DNA of 64,000 bases, taken from contig NZ_CP012601.1 of the NCBI RefSeq assembly GCF_001278755.1, forward strand, positions 1,674,001 through 1,738,000, given 5' to 3'. The translations under genes and the position numbers were made by a program. Source of the DNA: Bacillus sp. FJAT-22090 (GTDB taxonomy: Bacteria; Bacillota; Bacilli; Bacillales_A; Planococcaceae). The notes beneath the pieces were generated by a model. It did no database searches. It was not told where the DNA came from and worked only from the letters and a program-made list of their open reading frames with translations. Positions 25,928 through 37,681 of the stretch are shown in pieces (the stretch's first letter is position 1; every line of letters starts with the position of its first letter).

Positions 25928-27500
25928 CTATTTAACTTTAATAGGGATGCAACAGTCCTTTGGAATGGTCTTTGACCACGGAAGGAACTGATCAAGTGCT
26001 TCCTGATCATCTAAGTCAATTTGTGGTAAGCGTTCAAAGAGATAGGTTGTAAAATAGTTCAATGGATTTAGTTGATTCTCTTTAGCCGTTTCGACAATGC
26101 TGTAGATGATGGCACTGGCAGTTGCTCCCTTCATTGATTGGGCAAACAGCCATGCTTTTCTACCCATCACGAATAGTTTAATGGAGCGCTCTGCTCTGTT
26201 ATTGTCGAGTTCAAGTTCATAAAGGCAATGAGCTTTGGCCATTGGTTTAAACTGTAATTGATGGCGTCACCTAATTTACTTTTGGGCGGAACTTGAGGAC
26301 GTTTGGATTTTAGCCACGCTAAATAAGCATCCAACACTGGTTGACTGCGTTTTTGAGGTTCTTCTTTCCGTTGTTCTGGACTACAATTTTCAAATTCCTT
26401 TTCTATCTGTTTTTCAATTTTATATAACAGCGAACAGAATTGAAGACCTTCAGCCGCAAGAGTCGTAGACTTGTCTACATTGGCAGGTAAAGATTTGAGA
26501 GTTTCGTCATATTTTCTCCTAGCATGCGCCCAGCAACCAACCAACTCCACGTCCTTTAAATCATGGTATCCCGCATAACCATCGACATGAAGATATCCCG
26601 CAAATCCTTTAAGAAATGCCTTCGGACGTTTACTGTGGCGCGAAGTTTGATAGTCATATAGGACAATCGGTGCTACATCGTAACTAGATCGGTACAACCA
26701 CATATAGGACTTGGAATTTGCCGCTTTTCCGGATTCTGCTAAAACTTGTACGGTTGTTTCGTCTGCCTGCAGACGGTCAAGTTGTAGTAGTAAATCGTGC
26801 AAGCGATTGTAAATCGGTGAGAGCCACCTCGTAGCACCATATATTACCCAGTTGGCAATCGTTTGGCGTGATAGAAAGACACCAAGCCGTTTCGGTACAA
26901 CGGCATCCCTTCTACGTATTTTTGATTCATTATATATGCCATTGAAGAAGGTGAAGCGAGACTTTTTGGAAAGACTGCCGCAGGCATTTTCGCTGTGATA
27001 ATCGGTGTTTCTGTTCCTGTCTGCTCACATTGACGGCAGCTGTAAATATGTTGAACATGTTCAACGACTGTCACTTGAGCGGGAACAATTTTTAATTCGC
27101 GTCTCGTTTGAGTGCTCATTTCGTGAACTACTTCGCCGCAACACAAACAGACCTGCTCTTTATCAGGTAAACGATAATGGATCGTTTCCGTAGGCAAGTT
27201 TTCAAGTTTCGCATCCCGTTGTCCGATATACTTTTTTCGTTGGTAAGTAACTGATTCAAGTGTGGGTTCTTCGACCTTTTCATCCACTGATATTTCAGCT
27301 TCAATATAAAGGAGAAGTTCGAGTTGATTTGGATTCGATTTTTCACTGGAAGCCCCAAATTTCTTTTGTTGGCTAAGTCGGAACTGTTCTTCCCACCATT
27401 TAATTTTTGCCTCTAGGACTTCTTTTTGTTTTTCTAAATCCGCATTTTTCGCTGCGAGTTCCTCAATTGTTTCTTGTAGTTGAGTCGTATTTTTTCCCAT
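25928..27500 (-). pseudogene. tnpC: IS66 transposase TnpC, two frameshifts
   Basis: From 27500: N-terminal coiled-coil, the [10 protein letters not shown] signature, and a zinc-binding block with CLCCGE and CRQCE. The frame breaks near 26870 after EGMPLYR, continues with the catalytic region [11 protein letters not shown], then shifts again near 26240. It ends with [20 protein letters not shown] and a C-terminal tail at 25928. Joined, the pieces match a complete IS66 transposase of about 520 residues. It is inactive unless the shifts are suppressed. Confidence 0.88.
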
Positions 27501-27547
27501 GAGAATATAGTACCATAAAGAGAGAATACATGGGGTGTCAGTTCTCT

Positions 27548-27880
27548 CTAAATGATAAATTTTGCATCAATTTTTGGAAGTCCATCGAGTAACCAATTTA
27601 ATTGACGTTGGCTAATTTTTAATGGACTTGCTGTTTGCGATTCAGACCAATGGAACAGCCCTTCATCTAAACGGCGATAGTATAGCCAAAATCCGTTTTG
27701 ATCCCAGTCTAAGATTTTTAATTTATCCCGCTTCCGATTGCAGAACACAAAGAGATTCGATGAAAAAGGATCTAGTTGAAAACTCAATTGAAATATTGCT
27801 GCTAGTCCATCAACAGACTTGCGCAAATACGTTGGACCACAAGCCAAGTAAACCTGATCAATCGGGGCTTTACTTAACAT
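27548..27880 (-). CDS. tnpB: IS66 accessory protein TnpB
   Basis: A 110-residue IS66 Orf2 protein, apparently intact. It has the family pattern [19 protein letters not shown] and [24 protein letters not shown]. It is needed with TnpA for IS66 transposition, with unknown biochemical role. I start at ATG 27880, overlapping the end of tnpA by 11 bases as usual in IS66; a TTG at 27898 is the alternative. Confidence 0.9.
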
Positions 27881-28213
27881 GCTGTAGCAGGATTTCAATC
27901 ACTTCTTGGAGAAGTGCTCGATTAAAATCTTCTTGAATCTCAATAGACACGTAGTCTATATGGATGCGAAGAGATGAGTTTGAATCGCAGTGTGAGCTAG
28001 ATTGACTTAGCGCCATCCATTGTGCTGTAGGTTGTGCATCGAAATTTGATTCTGAAGCAAGTCTTTTCATCCATTGATACATGCTTTGAAGACCAATTGG
28101 CAACAACGGATCGATGCCTTCAAGGCAAGTGGAGAAACCAGTTGTGAAAGCTTGGTGTCGCCACAACCAAATTGGTCTTGTTGCCATAGTTGTTTTCGTT
28201 CCTCTGTTGACAT
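27870..28213 (-). pseudogene. tnpA: IS66 TnpA-like gene, probably frameshifted
   Basis: ATG at 28213 reads MSTEERKQLW, then the frame must shift near 28187 to reach YQWMKRLASES and the conserved tail IEIQEDFNRALLQEVIEILL. The C-terminal part agrees with IS66 Orf1; the middle is poorly conserved, so the exact lesion is uncertain. Confidence 0.65.
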
Positions 28214-28341: not shown

Positions 28342-28854
28342 TTATTTTGTATTGCCTTCATTACTTTCCACAAATGATTCTGGTTCATTACAATAATCAA
28401 ACGTTAGATTTTTAATTCGTGCTTCTTTTGCTTTTTCAAGTGCTTTTAATTGAGCTTCTGTAGGTTTTTTCTTAGGTTTAGTATCTAACTCAACATCATA
28501 TAACTTTACCCAACTTTTATTGCTCCATACCTCGGGTCTATATTTATTAACATCAATGGGCTTCAAGCCCATTGATGTTAATTGAGTTTTAGTTTTGAGA
28601 TTTGGTGAAACATTTTTCCATCCACCCTTGATTTTTTCAAACTCTAAATTAAACCATAATTCACTCCTAAACAAAAAGATTAACTTATTTTGAGTGCCTG
28701 ATTGAAAATGATACAAAAGTTCCGCAAAAACAATATTATTGCATGTGAAGAAATTCACAGTCTTCTCGTTAACGAAAGAGAGCTTAAACTGTATTGTTAA
28801 CAAACATACCTTGCAATCCATATCCGTTTGCATAAATATATAATTTCGCCTCAA
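28342..28854 (-). CDS. Hypothetical protein, possibly a fused remnant
   Basis: The frame runs 170 residues but has no convincing start: a TTG at 28854 lacks a ribosome site, and the first 60 residues look random. The second half (KTKTQLTSMGLKPIDVNKYR, EVWSNKSWVKLYDVE, KKPTEAQLKALEKAKEAR) looks like a genuine conserved protein tail. It lies 26 bp after lanT on the same strand, so it may be transcribed with the lan genes. I do not recognise the family, and a role in immunity is not supported. Confidence 0.4.
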   Translation of the reverse strand: MRRNYIFMQTDMDCKVCLLTIQFKLSFVNEKTVNFFTCNNIVFAELLYHFQSGTQNKLIFLFRSELWFNLEFEKIKGGWKNVSPNLKTKTQLTSMGLKPIDVNKYRPEVWSNKSWVKLYDVELDTKPKKKPTEAQLKALEKAKEARIKNLTFDYCNEPESFVESNEGNTK

Positions 28855-28880: not shown

Positions 28881-30650
28881 TCAAAATTGTTGCTTATCAT
28901 ACAAGCTACAATATATACCCTTTTTCTCCATTAACTGTTCATGATTACCTTGTTCACAAATATGTCCATTATCAAGAACAATTATCATTTCCGTTAATAA
29001 GCTTATTTTATTTAAATTGTGAGTTATAAAAATCCCTATTTTATCACTAAGAATTTCTTTGTATTTCAGTAAAATTTCTTTTTCCATTTCAGCATCAAGC
29101 GAAGCATTCGGCTCATCTAGTATATATAAGTCTGCTTTTTTTATAAACCCGCGAGATAATGCTATCCGTTGCCATTCACCCATTGATAGTTGTTTACCAT
29201 TATCAAACCAATGTCCTAATACTGTGTCTAGACCTTCTTCATCGAGTACTTTATCTTCAAAGTTAGAATAAGTGAGTATTTCTTTCAAAAGTAGATCATT
29301 ATCCATTTCTGCCAAGTTACCATATGCAACATTCTCCCGAACTGTCGTTTCATACTTAACATAATCTTGAAATACACAACCAATTTTTTTTATAAGGCTT
29401 TCTTTATTTATCTTCTTTAAATTAATATCATTTATAAATATTTCCCCTTCATAATTATCATAGAACCCCATAATGATTTTAATCAGTGTTGTTTTACCAG
29501 AACCATTTTTACCAATTAATGCAACTGTGTTATTGTTTGTAATAGTTAAATTAATATTTTTTAGTACATTTTTTTGACCATATGAATATGAAACATTTCT
29601 CAATTCAATTTTTTCTATCCTGTCGATATCTATTTTAGATTCATGCATTTCATTAGTAATATCTAGTTCCAAAAAATCAAAATACAACCCTATAAATAAA
29701 GCGTTCTTTGAAATAATACCCATTGTTGTTAATCCTGATTCTATATTAGTTTTTATACTAGAAACAGAACGAATATATGTAATAACAGCACCTATTAATA
29801 TATAGCCAACAAAGCCTTTATAGACTATATAAAAAAATACCCCTCCTAATATTATATGATCAAGACTTCCTAGGATAGTTTGTACAAAGGTAGATTTACG
29901 GAGTATGCTTACATCTTGATTAATAATTTCTTTAGAGAGATTACTATATTTATCAATTAGATATTTTTTCAATCCAAATAGCTTTATTTCTTTAAATGCA
30001 TTTCCCATTGTCATCAAGTATGATATATACCACACTTTTCTTTCTTTGCTAGTTCGTTCTTTTTGAACGTCAAATTGAAGTTTATTTATTTTAAGTGTAT
30101 ATAAGTATCTACTTACTGGCAAAGCTAGTACTATCGGTATTATCCACATATTAAAAGTAAATAAAATTATAATATAAGATATTATAGTCACAAATACTTT
30201 TAAGACAGAAATAACTTGAACAAATAACTCCATGACTTTTCCATTGCCTTCATTTTGAGCTCTGAGAATCATATTATAAATTTCACTGTTTTCAAATTGT
30301 ACTAAGCCTAAAGACGCTGACTTTTCTAATACAAGTATATTTAATTCGTTTTGAAATTTCAAAATAGTTTTTTGGGAATAATAAGTATATATGTTCGTAA
30401 TAATAGTTATAGAAAAATCTATAAAAATATATATAACTACCGCAAAAATTAGATCCTCTAACTTAGTGTTTGATAATTGTAATTTATCAATAATATCTTG
30501 CATAAATAGCAACGAAATCGGAGGCAAAACTCCCAGAATAACATTTGTTAAAACTGTAAAGCCTATAAATCTCTTGTTATTTTTAGAGATCATATTTAAG
30601 CACTTTAAAAAAATTTTGAAAATATATAATTTATTTTTTCTTTCATTCAT
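28881..30650 (-). CDS. lanT: Lanthipeptide ABC exporter (LanT)
   Basis: An exporter half-transporter of about 589 residues: six membrane helices in the first 310 residues, then an ATPase domain with Walker A ALIGKNGSGKTTLIK, signature LSMGEWQRIALSRG, Walker B LYILDEPNASLD and H-loop THNLNK. There is no N-terminal C39 peptidase domain, as in class I LanT (NisT type) and unlike glycocin exporters such as SunT. It should export the modified precursor with the leader still on. The start is uncertain: ATG 30650 or GTG 30662, both with weak ribosome sites. An IS5-type remnant separates it from lanC. Confidence 0.85.
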   Translation of the reverse strand: MNERKNKLYIFKIFLKCLNMISKNNKRFIGFTVLTNVILGVLPPISLLFMQDIIDKLQLSNTKLEDLIFAVVIYIFIDFSITIITNIYTYYSQKTILKFQNELNILVLEKSASLGLVQFENSEIYNMILRAQNEGNGKVMELFVQVISVLKVFVTIISYIIILFTFNMWIIPIVLALPVSRYLYTLKINKLQFDVQKERTSKERKVWYISYLMTMGNAFKEIKLFGLKKYLIDKYSNLSKEIINQDVSILRKSTFVQTILGSLDHIILGGVFFYIVYKGFVGYILIGAVITYIRSVSSIKTNIESGLTTMGIISKNALFIGLYFDFLELDITNEMHESKIDIDRIEKIELRNVSYSYGQKNVLKNINLTITNNNTVALIGKNGSGKTTLIKIIMGFYDNYEGEIFINDINLKKINKESLIKKIGCVFQDYVKYETTVRENVAYGNLAEMDNDLLLKEILTYSNFEDKVLDEEGLDTVLGHWFDNGKQLSMGEWQRIALSRGFIKKADLYILDEPNASLDAEMEKEILLKYKEILSDKIGIFITHNLNKISLLTEMIIVLDNGHICEQGNHEQLMEKKGIYCSLYDKQQF

Positions 30651-30939
30651 TATTAAGACCACTAACTTTCTTTAATTTTAAGCCATTATTGTTGACAAAA
30701 ACCGCAATAAAAAGGCAGTTAAAACTTTGACTTAAAATATTATTACAATCAAATGATAGTGTTGTGCACCTCTGGTTATATGGAGCTATTGCAGCTGTTA
30801 ATTACTTTGTTCATCCAGACAAAGTGAAATTTGGTTTCTATCTATTCCGCATGATATTTACTTCAAGTATAAAATATCTCCTATAGAAGCATATACTAAG
30901 CTAAAATTTAGTAATTTAAGAGCCTATCCAACAACAACC

Positions 30940-31290
30940 ATCCTATTTAAGAATAGGGATTAACTTTTTCCAACAAATAATAGCAAATGCAAAGGCGATA
31001 GCTATTATTGGTTTTTTCAAACCTGGCAAGCAGTTTCTTGAACCTGTTGAGGAATGAATGAGATACCTCCTCACCCCATCGAAGAGTTAGATTAAGGAGC
31101 TTTGGATTGTACCTATTAACTCTATCGATCACAACTCCTTTATCTTTTTGTCAACAACCTTCCCTTTATTCAGTTTCTCCCCTATCTGTTGGATTAGAAC
31201 CCAATAAATTTCTGTGCTAAAAAAGCATTTAACATACAAAAGTCAAGAGTGAGCCACTCCCCAGTCAACCCCTTTTACTTCATCGTACAC
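30940..31290 (-). pseudogene. IS5-type transposase remnant between lanC and lanT
   Basis: Minus-strand pieces EWLTLDFCMLNAFLAQKF, then SNPTDRG after a frameshift, the family's typical Asp region. Then come VVIDRVNRYNPKLLNL and SHSFLNRFKKLLARFEKTNN, a typical IS5-group C-terminus. Stops and shifts interrupt it and both ends are missing. The rest of 30663-31362 has no other recognisable gene. Confidence 0.7.
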
Positions 31291-31362
31291 ATATAGTCCT
31301 AACATCAAGATTGCTTCAAAGAATCCGCAGGCTGACTAAAGTTGAAAATACCTATATAAAAC

Positions 31363-32664
31363 CTAAATGAAAGCAAAATTTTTTTGAAAATTCGAATCAT
31401 TTTTTATCAATGTAATTAAAGTTAAGATACTACCCATAGGTCCGTCTAACACAGCAAATTCTTCCTTATGTTTGCCAGTGTGATCAATACCAAAAAAAGC
31501 ATATTTAGGATTGAGGTCATATGAGTGTATTAGCAATTCGGCATAATTTTTAATGGAATTGATTAAATTATCGCTCGGTTCAATCTTGTTATACCATTCA
31601 AATAAAAGAATTAGTCCTGAATACCCATGACATATAACTGTTGAATTCAATAAATGTTCTTCTCGTCTAAGTATAGCTATCTTATTTACCTGATCTTTAA
31701 CCAAATTTAATAAATCAATCCTATCCAAGGCTTTAGCTGCATGCTGTAAACTGCACAAAATACCAACATTTCCATAACACCAACTGTTGCGTTGTGCTTC
31801 TGTTATTGATTTATTATTCATGTATTCTTCAAGCGTTAAAATTCCAGGCCAATATGTTAAATTATTAATTTCACGAGCTGTTTTATCAAACTCTGCTACT
31901 AACTTTAAAATAGCATCTTTATGATTATTAATCTTTATACCTTTATTGTATGAAATAGACAATGCTAATAATATTCCTGCAATACCATGCGATATCCCAA
32001 AATTAAAATAACCACTTGAAAACATTTCTCTATCACTTGAAAATGGTAAATCTTCACTTTTCACATACCAACCAGAAATATTATGTCCATTGATATCTTT
32101 ATCTTCTATCAACTCTAATATATAAGATTGTATACTAGTTATTAATCTTTCTGATTTACTAAGATTACTAAATTCAATCAAGTATAACATCCAACCAGAA
32201 ACTCCCATGATTATATCGTATAGTTCTGCTTTGCATCGTTTGACATTAAAAATCACATTTAATTTAGAAATCATTCCTTCAATTAAAAAGTGCTCTACCT
32301 GATCATTAAAATTCTTGTAATTTCCAGTATTTTTCGATATAATATTCATTGCAATACTTGCATGCCCTAAACCGTTATAAATATTTGCATCATAAATATT
32401 TCCTGTCTCTATACGTTTTTTTATTTCTTTTACAATAACAAATATTATTTCATCACACCGATTATTTTCGTTCAATAAATTATATATTTCTCCTAAAAAT
32501 ATGGCATATGATAATAGTTTACTTCTATCTAAATTTTCAACTTGCTCCCTCAACAAAATATCAGATTCAATTTCTGTGTAAGTATCATTTATTATTTTCA
32601 TAATACTATCTATTTTGTCATCCTCTAGGTTATAAATGTTATTTATCTTATAAATATCAATCAT
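31363..32664 (-). CDS. lanC: Lanthionine cyclase (LanC)
   Basis: A 433-residue class I LanC. Conserved residues are H226 in FGISHGIAG, the zinc ligands C296 (SWCYGNVG) and C345-H346 (ICHGYSG), spaced as in NisC. It joins cysteine thiols to dehydrated Ser/Thr to form thioether rings. I start at ATG 32664, which overlaps the lanB stop by 8 bases and uses the GGAGG/AGAGG stretch at the end of lanB as ribosome site; the longer frame to 32688 is less likely. All key residues are present, so it should be active. Confidence 0.93.
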   Translation of the reverse strand: MIDIYKINNIYNLEDDKIDSIMKIINDTYTEIESDILLREQVENLDRSKLLSYAIFLGEIYNLLNENNRCDEIIFVIVKEIKKRIETGNIYDANIYNGLGHASIAMNIISKNTGNYKNFNDQVEHFLIEGMISKLNVIFNVKRCKAELYDIIMGVSGWMLYLIEFSNLSKSERLITSIQSYILELIEDKDINGHNISGWYVKSEDLPFSSDREMFSSGYFNFGISHGIAGILLALSISYNKGIKINNHKDAILKLVAEFDKTAREINNLTYWPGILTLEEYMNNKSITEAQRNSWCYGNVGILCSLQHAAKALDRIDLLNLVKDQVNKIAILRREEHLLNSTVICHGYSGLILLFEWYNKIEPSDNLINSIKNYAELLIHSYDLNPKYAFFGIDHTGKHKEEFAVLDGPMGSILTLITLIKNDSNFQKNFAFI

Positions 32665-35600
32665 TACCTCTTCCTCCATACTTAGCACTTAACGCTCTTC
32701 TTTTTTCCAAGTTAGCATATATACCATGTCTTACCAAAGAAATGATTTTTTTCTCCCAAGTATTATCTGCTTTAAATCTATTACATGACATATGAATAAT
32801 GCTTAAGATAATATCATTAATTTCATTTTTTAAGTTTCCTTTTGCTTCAACTTTTAAAATTTTATCTTTATATTCATTCAAAATAATGTTTCGTTGTTTA
32901 AATATGTGTAGTATATTAAGTTCATCTTTTGAAAGCAAAGATTTATCTCTGCTAACTAATCGAATAATTTCTTTTCTATTTTCTTTAAATACTTCACGAT
33001 AATCGCTTGGATTTCCACTTGCTTGTAACATCTCTAGTTGTCTTTGAGTATTAGGCTCTAAGACATCTAAAATAGCTAGGACATTCAAAATTCCTAAATA
33101 TAGGTCTGAATTTGCAATTGTTTTATTAGATAATCCATATAAAATATTTTCAATTACAATGCTATCAGCACAAAAGACATCCTCTGCTTTTTGTATTAAT
33201 TCAAAGCCCCCATATCTAGTTATCTCTGGTTCATAGGTATCATATATTCCTTTAGTTATTAATCCATTATCCCTTAATAATCTAAGCCAAGCATTTAATC
33301 TTTCAATTATTTTATCATCAGGTTGATTATAAAATTGTAATCTCAATCGAATGTGAGGTTCAGGATCATAATAGCGTATAAAAAAGTGTTTTTTTAGACC
33401 TTTATCTTCATAAAGTTCCGTACAAAAAAATTTTATATATCTCCCTATTAACTCTTCTTCACGCCCCCTACATCCATACAATTTTAAATATATCCAGCCA
33501 CTTTCACCAAACATAAAACTTTGATTATATCTTTCTTGAAACAAGTTATAATTAGGAAGTATTTTTTGATCATATAAAAATTCATTTGGATATAATTCGC
33601 TATTTTTGGAAAATGATACTATAATTTCATTCAAATATTTGTTATGATTAGAATCATATACAAATAAATTATTAAGATCTTGCAACGATTCTACTAAAAC
33701 TATATTTTTTTTGCTTTTCAATATATTTGTTACTAATTTACTCAAGTGAATATTTTCTAAGTCTATTAAGAGTTTTTTATCAAAATCTAATACAAAAAAT
33801 ACTTTTGGTATGTTATTAAAATTGCAGAATTTTATAAAGTCATCTTCACCCCAATTTTTTTTCTCTGCAAATCTTTCCAATTCTTTTTCTTCTACTTGCC
33901 ATGTTGCTGATTTTAAAATAATGTTTTTATAAGAAATTCTGGGCACATACATTGAATTAGGTATATGAAATTGTGATAAAATATAATTTAAGCTTTTTTG
34001 TTCAAAATAAGTCAAATCATATAAAAATCTTGAAAATTTACTAAAATATAATTCATTAAGCATATTTGTTTTAATCGCAACAATACGTTTATTAAGTGTT
34101 TTAGATTTTACATACAAGTTTTGGGTGTTTTTATCTATACCAACATATAAATCGGTTAGGGGAATATCAAATTTATTATCATTATAAGATGATATCGAAA
34201 TGCTATAATCAAAAGGGTTTTTATTTAAAGATACATTTCCGAATCTACTATTACTAGGATATTCATTGATTTCTGCCACGAGCGAAGTAGTGTTACTACA
34301 TGTTTCTTTAAATATATTCTCTGAAATACTTTCATCATCTATAAACGGCAGAAAACGACCTAAAGCTTGTCCTGCATTTGATGTTACACCTAAAAGGGCA
34401 ATATCGTATTCATCATTTTTTTCTCCATCTTTAATCATCTCCATATATATATCAAAGGAATCATTTTCTATTAGAGTAAAATCATTATCGGAAATATCTA
34501 ATAAATCTTTTTTTGTTAATTTTATCTCATTTATATTGTTTCGAAAGCGACGATTTAATAATTTTTGAAAACTCAACATTTTTGCGTTACTATTTTTTTC
34601 GTTGTCTTGAGTATTTATTTTATATTCATTCGGTATACCTAAACCTATGTTCTCATCTAAAACCTCGATAAGTGCAATTTCATCGTGCATTCCATATTTT
34701 TCTAAAAAATTATTCTTAAATATTTCAATGTGTGAGATATTCTTTTTAGGTGCTAAAGTTAACAAAAAATTTATACTCTCTTCAAGATTATTTTTAAACG
34801 ATTTACTTATTTTATTTGAATATACAGATTTAGTTAAATCAACTTGTAGATAATTTTTAGTTTCATAAATATCTTTCATTTTTTCACAGATATCTAAATA
34901 TATCTGTATGCCTTCGCCTATTTCGCATAGACAATACTCTTTAATTTTTCTTGAAATTTCATTTAATTTATAATAAATATTTTCTGATACACCATTTACA
35001 CAAAGAACTGATAAGATGTGTGCTAAAGGATCATCGCAAGATGTTGAAAAACGTAAATTAGTAAATAAAAATTCATTTTTAATCAAAGAATCTATTAAAC
35101 CATTGATTTTATCTCTACCAGCATCAGGATATAAGCTTTTCAAGTATAACTTAACATCCTTTATTCCAACAAAATCTGTGCAGTACTCCATGACAAGTTG
35201 CACTGCTTTTGTAAATCTAATAGACGACCTATTACTATTTTTATCATTATGTAAATGATAAATTGATAAATAAGGATTTATTAATCTATCGCCTTGCCTA
35301 TAGCAAGAAGGATTTACTTTGATCATCAAATTTTCTCTTAAACTTATATTTGACTCAATTAATCTAATAAGATTACAGCACCACTCAAAGTCAACACGCA
35401 CATGTTTTTCATACTTTTGCAATTCATTAATGTGTATATCTGTTCTGTCATCATTACCGAATTTTCCAATTGAAACTCCAGCGGTTAGACCATAAGGTGT
35501 TGAGCGTGTTGACATTCTATTATAGTATTTTATTAGAGTTTGAAGTAATTGTGGTTTTCTACTCTTAGTCATGTATAACATTTTATAAGTATCAATTGAG

Positions 35601-35773
35601 CTAACTAGTAATGCTTCTTCAAAAATCTTATTTGATAAGAAAAAGTCATAAATCTCATTATCATCCATACGAGAAGTCAATAATTTCTTTAAGTTATCTA
35701 TAGGAAATAAAGGTGTTCTTAGCAAAAAAGTTTCATGAATTTTATACTCACACAAAAGATCAGTGGCTTTCAT
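32657..35773 (-). CDS. lanB: Lanthipeptide dehydratase (LanB)
   Basis: A 1038-residue full-length class I dehydratase (NisB is 993). The N-terminal glutamylation domain includes RSTPYGL at residues 90-96. The C-terminal elimination domain has FMFGESGWIYLKLYG and FIRYYDPEPHIRLRL, its signature. It activates Ser/Thr of the precursor with glutamyl-tRNA and eliminates glutamate to give dehydro-amino acids. It lies 142 bp after the precursor gene, with a hairpin between, and overlaps lanC. Both domains are in one protein, unlike the split enzymes of thiopeptide clusters. Confidence 0.94.
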   Translation of the reverse strand: MKATDLLCEYKIHETFLLRTPLFPIDNLKKLLTSRMDDNEIYDFFLSNKIFEEALLVSSIDTYKMLYMTKSRKPQLLQTLIKYYNRMSTRSTPYGLTAGVSIGKFGNDDRTDIHINELQKYEKHVRVDFEWCCNLIRLIESNISLRENLMIKVNPSCYRQGDRLINPYLSIYHLHNDKNSNRSSIRFTKAVQLVMEYCTDFVGIKDVKLYLKSLYPDAGRDKINGLIDSLIKNEFLFTNLRFSTSCDDPLAHILSVLCVNGVSENIYYKLNEISRKIKEYCLCEIGEGIQIYLDICEKMKDIYETKNYLQVDLTKSVYSNKISKSFKNNLEESINFLLTLAPKKNISHIEIFKNNFLEKYGMHDEIALIEVLDENIGLGIPNEYKINTQDNEKNSNAKMLSFQKLLNRRFRNNINEIKLTKKDLLDISDNDFTLIENDSFDIYMEMIKDGEKNDEYDIALLGVTSNAGQALGRFLPFIDDESISENIFKETCSNTTSLVAEINEYPSNSRFGNVSLNKNPFDYSISISSYNDNKFDIPLTDLYVGIDKNTQNLYVKSKTLNKRIVAIKTNMLNELYFSKFSRFLYDLTYFEQKSLNYILSQFHIPNSMYVPRISYKNIILKSATWQVEEKELERFAEKKNWGEDDFIKFCNFNNIPKVFFVLDFDKKLLIDLENIHLSKLVTNILKSKKNIVLVESLQDLNNLFVYDSNHNKYLNEIIVSFSKNSELYPNEFLYDQKILPNYNLFQERYNQSFMFGESGWIYLKLYGCRGREEELIGRYIKFFCTELYEDKGLKKHFFIRYYDPEPHIRLRLQFYNQPDDKIIERLNAWLRLLRDNGLITKGIYDTYEPEITRYGGFELIQKAEDVFCADSIVIENILYGLSNKTIANSDLYLGILNVLAILDVLEPNTQRQLEMLQASGNPSDYREVFKENRKEIIRLVSRDKSLLSKDELNILHIFKQRNIILNEYKDKILKVEAKGNLKNEINDIILSIIHMSCNRFKADNTWEKKIISLVRHGIYANLEKRRALSAKYGGRGND

Positions 35774-35826
35774 TATTTAAACAGTCCTTTCTATAAAGAA
35801 TACCATTAAGCATAATATAAAAATGA

Positions 35827-35888
35827 TGATCGATTGAAATAACAAAGCTCATTTTTCAAATACATAGCCTTTGATTTTCAATCGATCA
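35827..35888 (-). terminator. Hairpin between lanA and lanB (attenuator)
   Basis: TGATCGATTGAAA at 35827-35839 and TTTCAATCGATCA at 35876-35888 form a perfect 13-bp stem around a 36-base loop. On the minus strand the stem is followed by CATTTTTATATT. Such intercistronic stems after lanA usually stop most transcripts, so that far more precursor than enzyme is made. Partial termination is inferred. Confidence 0.75.
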
Positions 35889-35915
35889 AATTATATGCCT
35901 GTAGCGCTCTAACTA

Positions 35916-36098
35916 CTAGCAACCATGGCAACTTGTTGTACAAGAAGCGGCAGTGTTAGATGATCCACCACAACTTGAATAACAAGAAGCAGCAGAAGTA
36001 ACCCAAACCGTTGTCGTAGCTATACTGCAACTAGGAGTGACGCTTCCCTCTACAGGTTTAAGTACAATATCTAAATCAAAATCATCAAAGTTTGGCAT
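35916..36098 (-). CDS. lanA: Class I lanthipeptide precursor (LanA)
   Basis: A 60-residue precursor. The leader carries the class I FDLD box at residues 7-10 (DDFDLDIVLK). The C-terminal part has Cys at 24, 39, 43, 53, 57 and 60 and 19 Ser/Thr in the last 42 residues. Two related units, SAASCYSSCG (35-44) and TAASCTTSCH (49-58), suggest internal duplication. The start at 36098 has AAAGGAGGTGAGA 2-3 bases upstream; a longer frame from 36131 does not. The leader cleavage site is unclear (perhaps near residues 18-23), as no LanP is encoded. The C-terminal residue is Cys and no LanD decarboxylase is present. Confidence 0.93.
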   Translation of the reverse strand: MPNFDDFDLDIVLKPVEGSVTPSCSIATTTVWVTSAASCYSSCGGSSNTAASCTTSCHGC

Positions 36099-36230
36099 AT
36101 TCTCACCTCCTTTCATTACATAAATTTTCACATATATAAAGAAAAGAACACCAAATAGCTTGGTAACTTAACGTTGATAATAAAATATTCCTAAAATAAC
36201 CACCTAGATAAACTTGACAGCTTTTTTAAG

Positions 36231-37517
36231 CTAACCCGAATAGCACCCATCATTTATAAGATTAGTATAGTAAATATCTGAATCCTCTACTTTCATGCAT
36301 TCTTCTTGCAACACATTAACCATTTTTTCTGTTTCAATTATAATCTTTTGTGCTAGCTCACCATCCACCTCGTAAAGCAACGGAAAAAAATTTCCGAAAT
36401 TAAGCAACTGAAGCTTCACAGAAAAAAATCTAGATATTAAAACTGCCTTTCTTATATTTAATATGGAATCAGAATTTTCCACAGTTTTTAGGCAAAACAT
36501 TCTTTCTTCTATCTTTTTGTTTGCACTAATCAACTTTTTTTCATCCAATATCATTTCTATGTATAAACTATCTGCATTATTGGGATAACTTGAGTTTAAT
36601 AGTTTGACTATATTTTCGCATTCATCTATTTTACCAAAATGAATGAAAATCAATGCTATATAAACATATGCAGCTCTTTCATAGGGTTTCGTATTTGTAT
36701 TTCCCGTTTGGATTTTTTTTATACAATTATTAGCGAGAAATAACAATTCATCATCGAATTTTTTGAATATATACAAATCACGCATCAAGAAAAAAGACCA
36801 TCTAAAATTATTACGTTCCATTTTTAATGTTTTTTTTAATAACACAATATTTCTATCTGACTTGTTCTTTCCGATAATCTTCTTAGATTCGTAACCATCA
36901 TGAAACAAAGTGAAATCCAAAGATACTGCCTTCAAAGGAATATTGTCTATTCTTCTTAGTTCTTCATGGACACATCCATAAAAATAAAAAGACGAACTAT
37001 TTTTAAAAATTCTTGCTAATGAATCATATTTCTCTTTAGTAGAATCAATTATTGTTGGCGATATCACAACCTCGTCATCTAATATAGAGATTATATATGA
37101 TATTGTTTTTTTGAATTCATATACGTTGATGTTATCAGAAATAAATTCATCAGCATCTATTGTAAAGATAATATCACCAGTAGATTTTTCTAACATGTAA
37201 TTCCTGATTTCCGAAAAATTTTCATTCCATTTGTGATAATAGAGTCTTATCTTTGAGGAATTAATACTTTCAATTATTTCAATTGTTTTATCTGTAGATC
37301 CGGTATCAACTATAACTATCTCATCAAAAAATGGAATAATGCTATTTAGGCATCTTTCTATACAATCTTCTTCATTCCGAACCATAAGATTTGCTGAAAA
37401 CAATAAATCTGAATTCAAAGCAAAGCCTTTAAGTAGATTATCAAATATAGTTGAGTCACATTTAGTAATGTGCTTCAAACATTGTTTATGGAATTCACTC
37501 GGAAATTTATTTTGCAT
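36231..37517 (-). CDS. SunS-like family 2 glycosyltransferase
   Basis: A 428-residue protein close in length and layout to SunS (422), the S-glycosyltransferase of sublancin. The GT-A domain has LMVRNEEDCIERCLNS, IVDTGSTDKT and the metal-binding DAD at residues 121-123, then YGCVHEEL and FHDGYES, which match SunS HGKVHEEP and YHNGY positions. The C-terminal half is a helical TPR-like region, as in SunS, which binds the peptide. It is immediately upstream of lanA on the same strand, so it probably glycosylates Cys or Ser/Thr of that peptide. Start ATG 37517, or TTG 37529 next to AAAGGGA. Confidence 0.85.
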   Translation of the reverse strand: MQNKFPSEFHKQCLKHITKCDSTIFDNLLKGFALNSDLLFSANLMVRNEEDCIERCLNSIIPFFDEIVIVDTGSTDKTIEIIESINSSKIRLYYHKWNENFSEIRNYMLEKSTGDIIFTIDADEFISDNINVYEFKKTISYIISILDDEVVISPTIIDSTKEKYDSLARIFKNSSSFYFYGCVHEELRRIDNIPLKAVSLDFTLFHDGYESKKIIGKNKSDRNIVLLKKTLKMERNNFRWSFFLMRDLYIFKKFDDELLFLANNCIKKIQTGNTNTKPYERAAYVYIALIFIHFGKIDECENIVKLLNSSYPNNADSLYIEMILDEKKLISANKKIEERMFCLKTVENSDSILNIRKAVLISRFFSVKLQLLNFGNFFPLLYEVDGELAQKIIIETEKMVNVLQEECMKVEDSDIYYTNLINDGCYSG

Positions 37518-37681
37518 ATTATAACTCAATCCCTTTTTTTCAGATACGAATTATTATTAAGCAACAAACTTTAAGTGGAAGCGGTTTCTAAAAACTGAAA
37601 AAACTATTAAATGATTGGTTTTCTCCTGAAATTGCATATACTCTCTCCTCTCCTTGTCCTATCTTTGTATTGTATGCTCAT

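Follow-up and report, generated by a model that had tools for sequence, protein, structure and literature searches.

A SunS/ThuS-related glycosyltransferase gene beside class I lanthipeptide genes in Bacillus sp. FJAT-22090: a candidate glycosylated lanthipeptide

We analysed a 64,000-nucleotide stretch of the Bacillus sp. FJAT-22090 genome (NZ_CP012601.1, positions 1,674,001 to 1,738,000; hereafter the window) that carries a class I lanthipeptide cluster next to a gene for a glycosyltransferase (GT) related to SunS and ThuS. Five open reading frames (ORFs), all uninterrupted and all on the minus strand, run from position 37517 down to 28881 in the order GT, lanA, lanB, lanC, lanT. The GT gene (36231..37517) encodes 428 aa, counted from an ATG at 37517 that we took as its start; the longest frame opens with a TTG at 37529. 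After a spacing of 132 bases follows lanA (35916..36098), which is preceded by a clear ribosome-binding site and encodes a 60-aa precursor with an FDLD leader and six Cys. The reading frames of lanB (32657..35773; 1038 aa) and lanC (31363..32688; 441 aa as the longest frame) overlap, and lanT (28881..30662; 593 aa as the longest frame), which encodes an ATP-binding cassette (ABC) exporter, is set apart from lanC by 700 bases. A preliminary description of this DNA had given the same one-strand order of GT, 60-residue FDLD precursor with six Cys, LanB, LanC and LanT, and we recovered all of it at these coordinates.

Two of the intergenic stretches have features of their own. The lanA–lanB gap (35774..35915, minus strand) contains a 13-pair stem; when 35774–35925 was folded, the z-score was −3.42 and none of 200 shuffled sequences was as stable. 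Lying behind lanA, the stem might act as an attenuator or stabilise the mRNA, and an Rfam scan of window 20–44 kb gave nothing above the gathering score. The lanC–lanT gap (30663..31362, no strand assigned) looks like an insertion-sequence remnant, although its ORF had no Pfam match and the gap itself, like the rest of the cluster and the IS66 stretch described below, had no match in plasmid DNA. Because this putative insertion lies upstream of lanT, the exporter gene may be off the shared transcript.

LanA looks like a class I precursor in having an FDLD leader and being rich in Cys and Ser/Thr. F(N/D)LD is the class I leader motif, and leaders of this type were also present in precursors beside other LanBs. 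By analogy with an xPx site, the core probably begins at residue 24, with cleavage C-terminal to the Ser of Thr-Pro-Ser, and the 37-residue core predicted in this way contains six Cys and 16 Ser/Thr. Its last residue is a Cys, as in the precursors of glycocin F, whose C-terminal Cys is glycosylated. Another Cys is followed by Gly-Gly, and Gly-Gly-Gly follows Cys22 of sublancin (SunA of phage SPBc2), which is glucosylated (PMC5100339). These two Cys of LanA are leads to a glycosylation site and not evidence of one. We looked for a second substrate among 216 small ORFs at 23.0–41.3 kb, 18 of which were kept by a Cys/Gly filter and inspected visually; none of these resembled a second precursor, and none of the filtered ORFs near the cluster was a double-glycine-leader peptide.

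The modification enzymes are of class I type throughout. PF04738 and PF14028, the glutamylation and elimination domains, span most of LanB, whose closest solved structures are MadB (9g04; E = 8e-113) and NisB (E = 6e-57). Nine residues of MadB are required for glutamylation and elimination (PMC12241602); eight of them align to LanB R86, R90, T92, D128, D312, R473, R811 and R853, and the ninth, a His, corresponds to H994 in the alignment with NisB only. We dropped a reading of LanB as a sactipeptide or thiopeptide enzyme, as the match to TIGR03891 was confined to the C-terminal domain. In alignments with MadC (8byk) and NisC, LanC (PF05147) retains the zinc ligands C304, C353 and H354 and the acid/base-type residues D158, H234 and R300 (longest-frame numbering; residue roles from PMC9889658). 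No C39 peptidase domain was found in LanT, either in Pfam or in comparison with four C39-type N-termini. LanT scored 290–546 bits against the exporters of 24 of 38 other LanB loci and at most 97 bits against the ABC proteins of 49 GT loci (both samples are described below), and by these scores it groups with the LanT exporters of lanthipeptide loci. Domains, residues and searches agree with what had been claimed earlier: class I lanthipeptide machinery with a full-length LanB, a LanC with all zinc and acid/base residues, and a LanT without a peptidase domain.

The GT combines a GT-A domain (PF00535, 1e-18) with a helical C-terminal part. In its predicted model, the matches to SunS and ThuS far exceeded those to other solved structures and covered the full length, helical part included; the DAD, HE and HxGY motifs, which we take to be catalytic, are common to all three proteins. 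Against TIGR04195, the NCBIfam model for SunS, the GT scored 135 bits (3e-39) and missed the cut-off of 350, which makes it by profile score a distant relative in the SunS group and not a SunS equivalog. The earlier assignment as a SunS-like GT of GT-A/TPR type is borne out by the fold, with the qualification that the kinship to SunS is distant. In two quick, unrooted trees, in which inner forks on the bacteriocin side are partly unsettled, the GT grouped with GTs from bacteriocin-type loci (enterocin among them) and apart from the GTs of 39 other genomic loci. The four closest relatives (P0003–P0006) are 41–53% identical and lie on metagenome contigs, the longest of which measure 4099, 3329, 1433 and 3175 bases, respectively.

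Gene order, the clade of the GT and the lack of another precursor lead us to propose that the GT acts on LanA. The presence and integrity of the genes are solid, and it is likely, from proximity and clade, that the GT decorates the same precursor as the class I lanthipeptide machinery. LanB would bind the FDLD leader and dehydrate Ser/Thr with Glu-tRNA, and LanC would close thioether rings using all six Cys or a subset of them. A nucleotide sugar would supply the hexose or N-acetylhexosamine that the GT would attach to a Cys or Ser/Thr left free, and LanT would export the peptide, which may be antibacterial, with its leader attached. The leader would be removed by a protease encoded elsewhere in the genome, where there are four S8-family protease genes whose products could do so. 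Lanthionine formation and S-glycosylation both consume a Cys thiol. We also entertain, tentatively, a narrower version in which one Cys is S-glycosylated and the others enter lanthionines, the cysteines of a single peptide being shared out between GT and LanC; the candidate S-glycosylation sites are the Cys before Gly-Gly, the C-terminal Cys and the Cys that comes first in the predicted core.

Several observations weigh against a shared substrate, the first being that we found no second example of a GT paired with LanB and LanC. We compared 38 other LanB neighbourhoods, taken from the family (11 genomes), a phylum sample (one genome, two loci), a class sample (20 genomes, 22 loci) and three of 105 plasmid records with a LanB match; every LanB place found in the genome samples was included. 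None had a SunS-like GT within ~8 kb (E ≤ 0.01). Their LanBs are only 24–34% identical to that of the window and their precursors are different. LanC was present in 32 of these regions, and the six without LanC may not be lanthipeptide loci; contig ends shortened two of the 38 regions to 11–12 kb. Conversely, neither LanB nor LanC occurred in any of 49 GT neighbourhoods, ten of which are shorter than 12 kb and one only 3.2 kb. These comprised 39 genome places, four loci on genome contigs and six on plasmids. The genome places covered 20 of the 21 other genomes of one sample, for which the order-level search had the size (261) and the handles of the family-level one, plus 19 loci from 18 of the 92 other genomes of a second sample, chosen for ORFs below ~480 aa. 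The same was true of the 80 viral-contig GT loci kept from 407 found with query A1; queries A2 and P0003 yielded no confirmed relative on viral contigs, and LanB no pattern match. Phage records gave 13 matches to the GT, including SPbeta-type records that carry SunS. Genome contigs scanned with the five closest GTs yielded four distant relatives, none adjoining LanB or LanC, and a search with LanB residues 1–480, in which the best 7993 candidates were scored, returned five matches, none with a longest contig matching those of P0003–P0006. No homologous cluster was found in these comparisons.

Further points on the same side concern the individual components. A search of 5.8 billion proteins with LanA returned only LanA itself, by a method that needs shared 5-residue words and is weak for a 60-aa query, and plasmids contained no relative. 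The GT lies below the SunS cut-off, its trees are quick and unrooted with inner forks partly open, and their bacteriocin labels are taken largely from annotation and neighbours; the bacteriocin side also includes 21 GTs whose context was not examined. The insertion-like stretch precedes lanT. Neither a LanP nor a regulator was seen in the cluster, and nor was a LanFEG gene. Two adjacent permease-like matches to the lantibiotic MutG model, ~1 Mb away, scored 67.9 and 42.4 bits, below the cut-off of 117.2, and neither show nor exclude an immunity transporter.

Some of these observations would also fit a cluster that is no longer functional in this strain, which is compatible with any of the readings discussed here and which we consider unlikely. 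The insertion-like gap at 30663–31362 and the lack of LanP and LanFEG genes in the cluster speak for it, whereas the five open frames, the checked active-site residues, all in place, and the S8 proteases that could process the peptide argue for a working system.

The genomic setting bears on another explanation. The cluster lies inside the lexA–glnA interval (window 20713–41318), which is 20.6 kb long here and 3.2–16.6 kb in the 12 of 18 genus relatives that had both genes on the fetched stretch. On the stretches of all 18 relatives, GT, LanA, LanB and LanC had no match at E 1e-8, and LanT had only weak ABC matches. The interval also holds IS66 and integrase pieces: an IS66-type transposase is fragmented at 25928–28187, with the piece at 26167–26802 confirmed by Pfam, and an integrase-like piece adjoining glnA has a match in seven of the 18 relatives. 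Across the genus the lexA–glnA interval is a variable island or insertion site, and the lan genes resemble cargo that is specific to a strain or species. No relative had a close copy of the GT; distant GTs scored 116 bits in one case (707 for the window GT) and 158–159 bits in two others (547 for the window GT). One relative (L038) has a different class I cluster without such a GT, whose LanB is 32% identical. In such an island the GT might be a bystander, the remnant of a separate glycocin-type locus, and LanA would be an ordinary lanthipeptide; the variability of the interval, its IS66 and integrase pieces, the lack of GT, LanA, LanB and LanC matches on the stretches of the 18 relatives and the count of 0 of 38 LanB loci with a SunS-like GT all fit this view. 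Against it, the GT frame is open, adjacent to the lan genes and on their strand, the exporter has no C39 domain, and no double-glycine-leader peptide was seen adjoining; we judge a bystander GT to be quite improbable. That the GT alters some other component of the cell, for example in self-protection, is very improbable, given that its full-length matches among solved structures are SunS and ThuS, helical C-terminal part included, and that it groups with GTs of bacteriocin loci.

Among the nearest known systems, the maddinglicin cluster of Clostridium maddingley has the solved LanB and LanC that are most similar in sequence, and it shares conserved active sites and class I logic with the window cluster, but the available text of its papers mentions no SunS-type GT. 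The glycocins (sublancin, thurandacin, glycocin F/ASM1) resemble it in GT fold and side of the tree, in their small Cys-rich precursor and in ABC export. They differ in having C39-peptidase exporters, disulfides and, in the loci examined, thioredoxin-like genes, whereas the window cluster has LanB and LanC together with a LanT that has no peptidase domain; a profile scan of 16 proteins from the cluster and its flanks found no thioredoxin domain. A C39-peptidase (PCAT) exporter is typical of glycocin clusters (PMC12457901). Sugar-bearing lanthipeptides are known from other classes, namely NAI-112, of class III with a deoxyhexose on Trp (PMC10373908), and cacaoidin, of class V with a sugar on Tyr (PMC12328550), and a lanthipeptide survey records GTs in class IV clusters (PMC7268733). 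In Bacteroidales, regions with radical-SAM, LanC and S-glycosyltransferase genes have been described; there was no LanB in the genomes screened, and the LanC proteins checked lacked the zinc motif (PMC10352776). The available text of PMC9576775 and PMC12016500 contains no glycosylated class I case, and that of PMC10885120 nothing about a LanA-type leader. Our searches of the open literature turned up no SunS-type GT associated with a class I lanthipeptide, consistent with the preliminary description, which knew of none with such a sugar; an earlier listing is possible in a glycocin survey (Singh and Rao 2021). If the proposed reading is true, the cluster would reveal how a peptide's cysteines are apportioned to ring closure or to glycosylation, and would offer a natural glyco-lanthipeptide scaffold and a GT possibly accepting lanthipeptides for engineering. 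If the GT is inactive on LanA, what remains is a new class I lanthipeptide cluster of the ordinary kind.

Other loci in the comparison are worth recording. The class I locus L157, which we take to be geobacillin-like, has a leader (DDFDLDIV) and a Cys-rich C-terminal end that resemble those of LanA; it has no neighbouring GT, and its core is otherwise different. In the class I lan loci L166 (5508–7899), L162 and L164, numerous distinct FDLD precursors are encoded one after another; a simple pattern picked out eleven such ORFs in L166. In L054 (2351–8310) and L055 (11501–16213), which have the exporters closest to LanT, genes for a MacAB-type permease, fusion protein and ATPase lie between lanA and lanB, as judged by eye. 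Three ORFs of 882–950 aa at first seemed equal to the bacteriocin-locus GTs (261–280 bits) and were rejected, since these scores are the sum of two domains of 128–163 bits each; they place on the opposite side of the GT tree. These are tandem GT domains of SunS-like type (L102, 13454–16306; L105, 9357–12206; L106, 5481–8129) with further GT genes adjoining. Some Gram-negative relatives of the GT lie in loci that look like those of glycosylated microcins: L056 (5290–11045) and L057 (2463–7035) near HlyD and C39-exporter genes, L058 (5998–12906) near HlyD and MchC, and L002 (9974–12390) near small peptide ORFs. In the window itself, an ORF of unknown function (28342–28854) contains a perfect inverted repeat of 18 bases whose loop is a single base (28546–28582).

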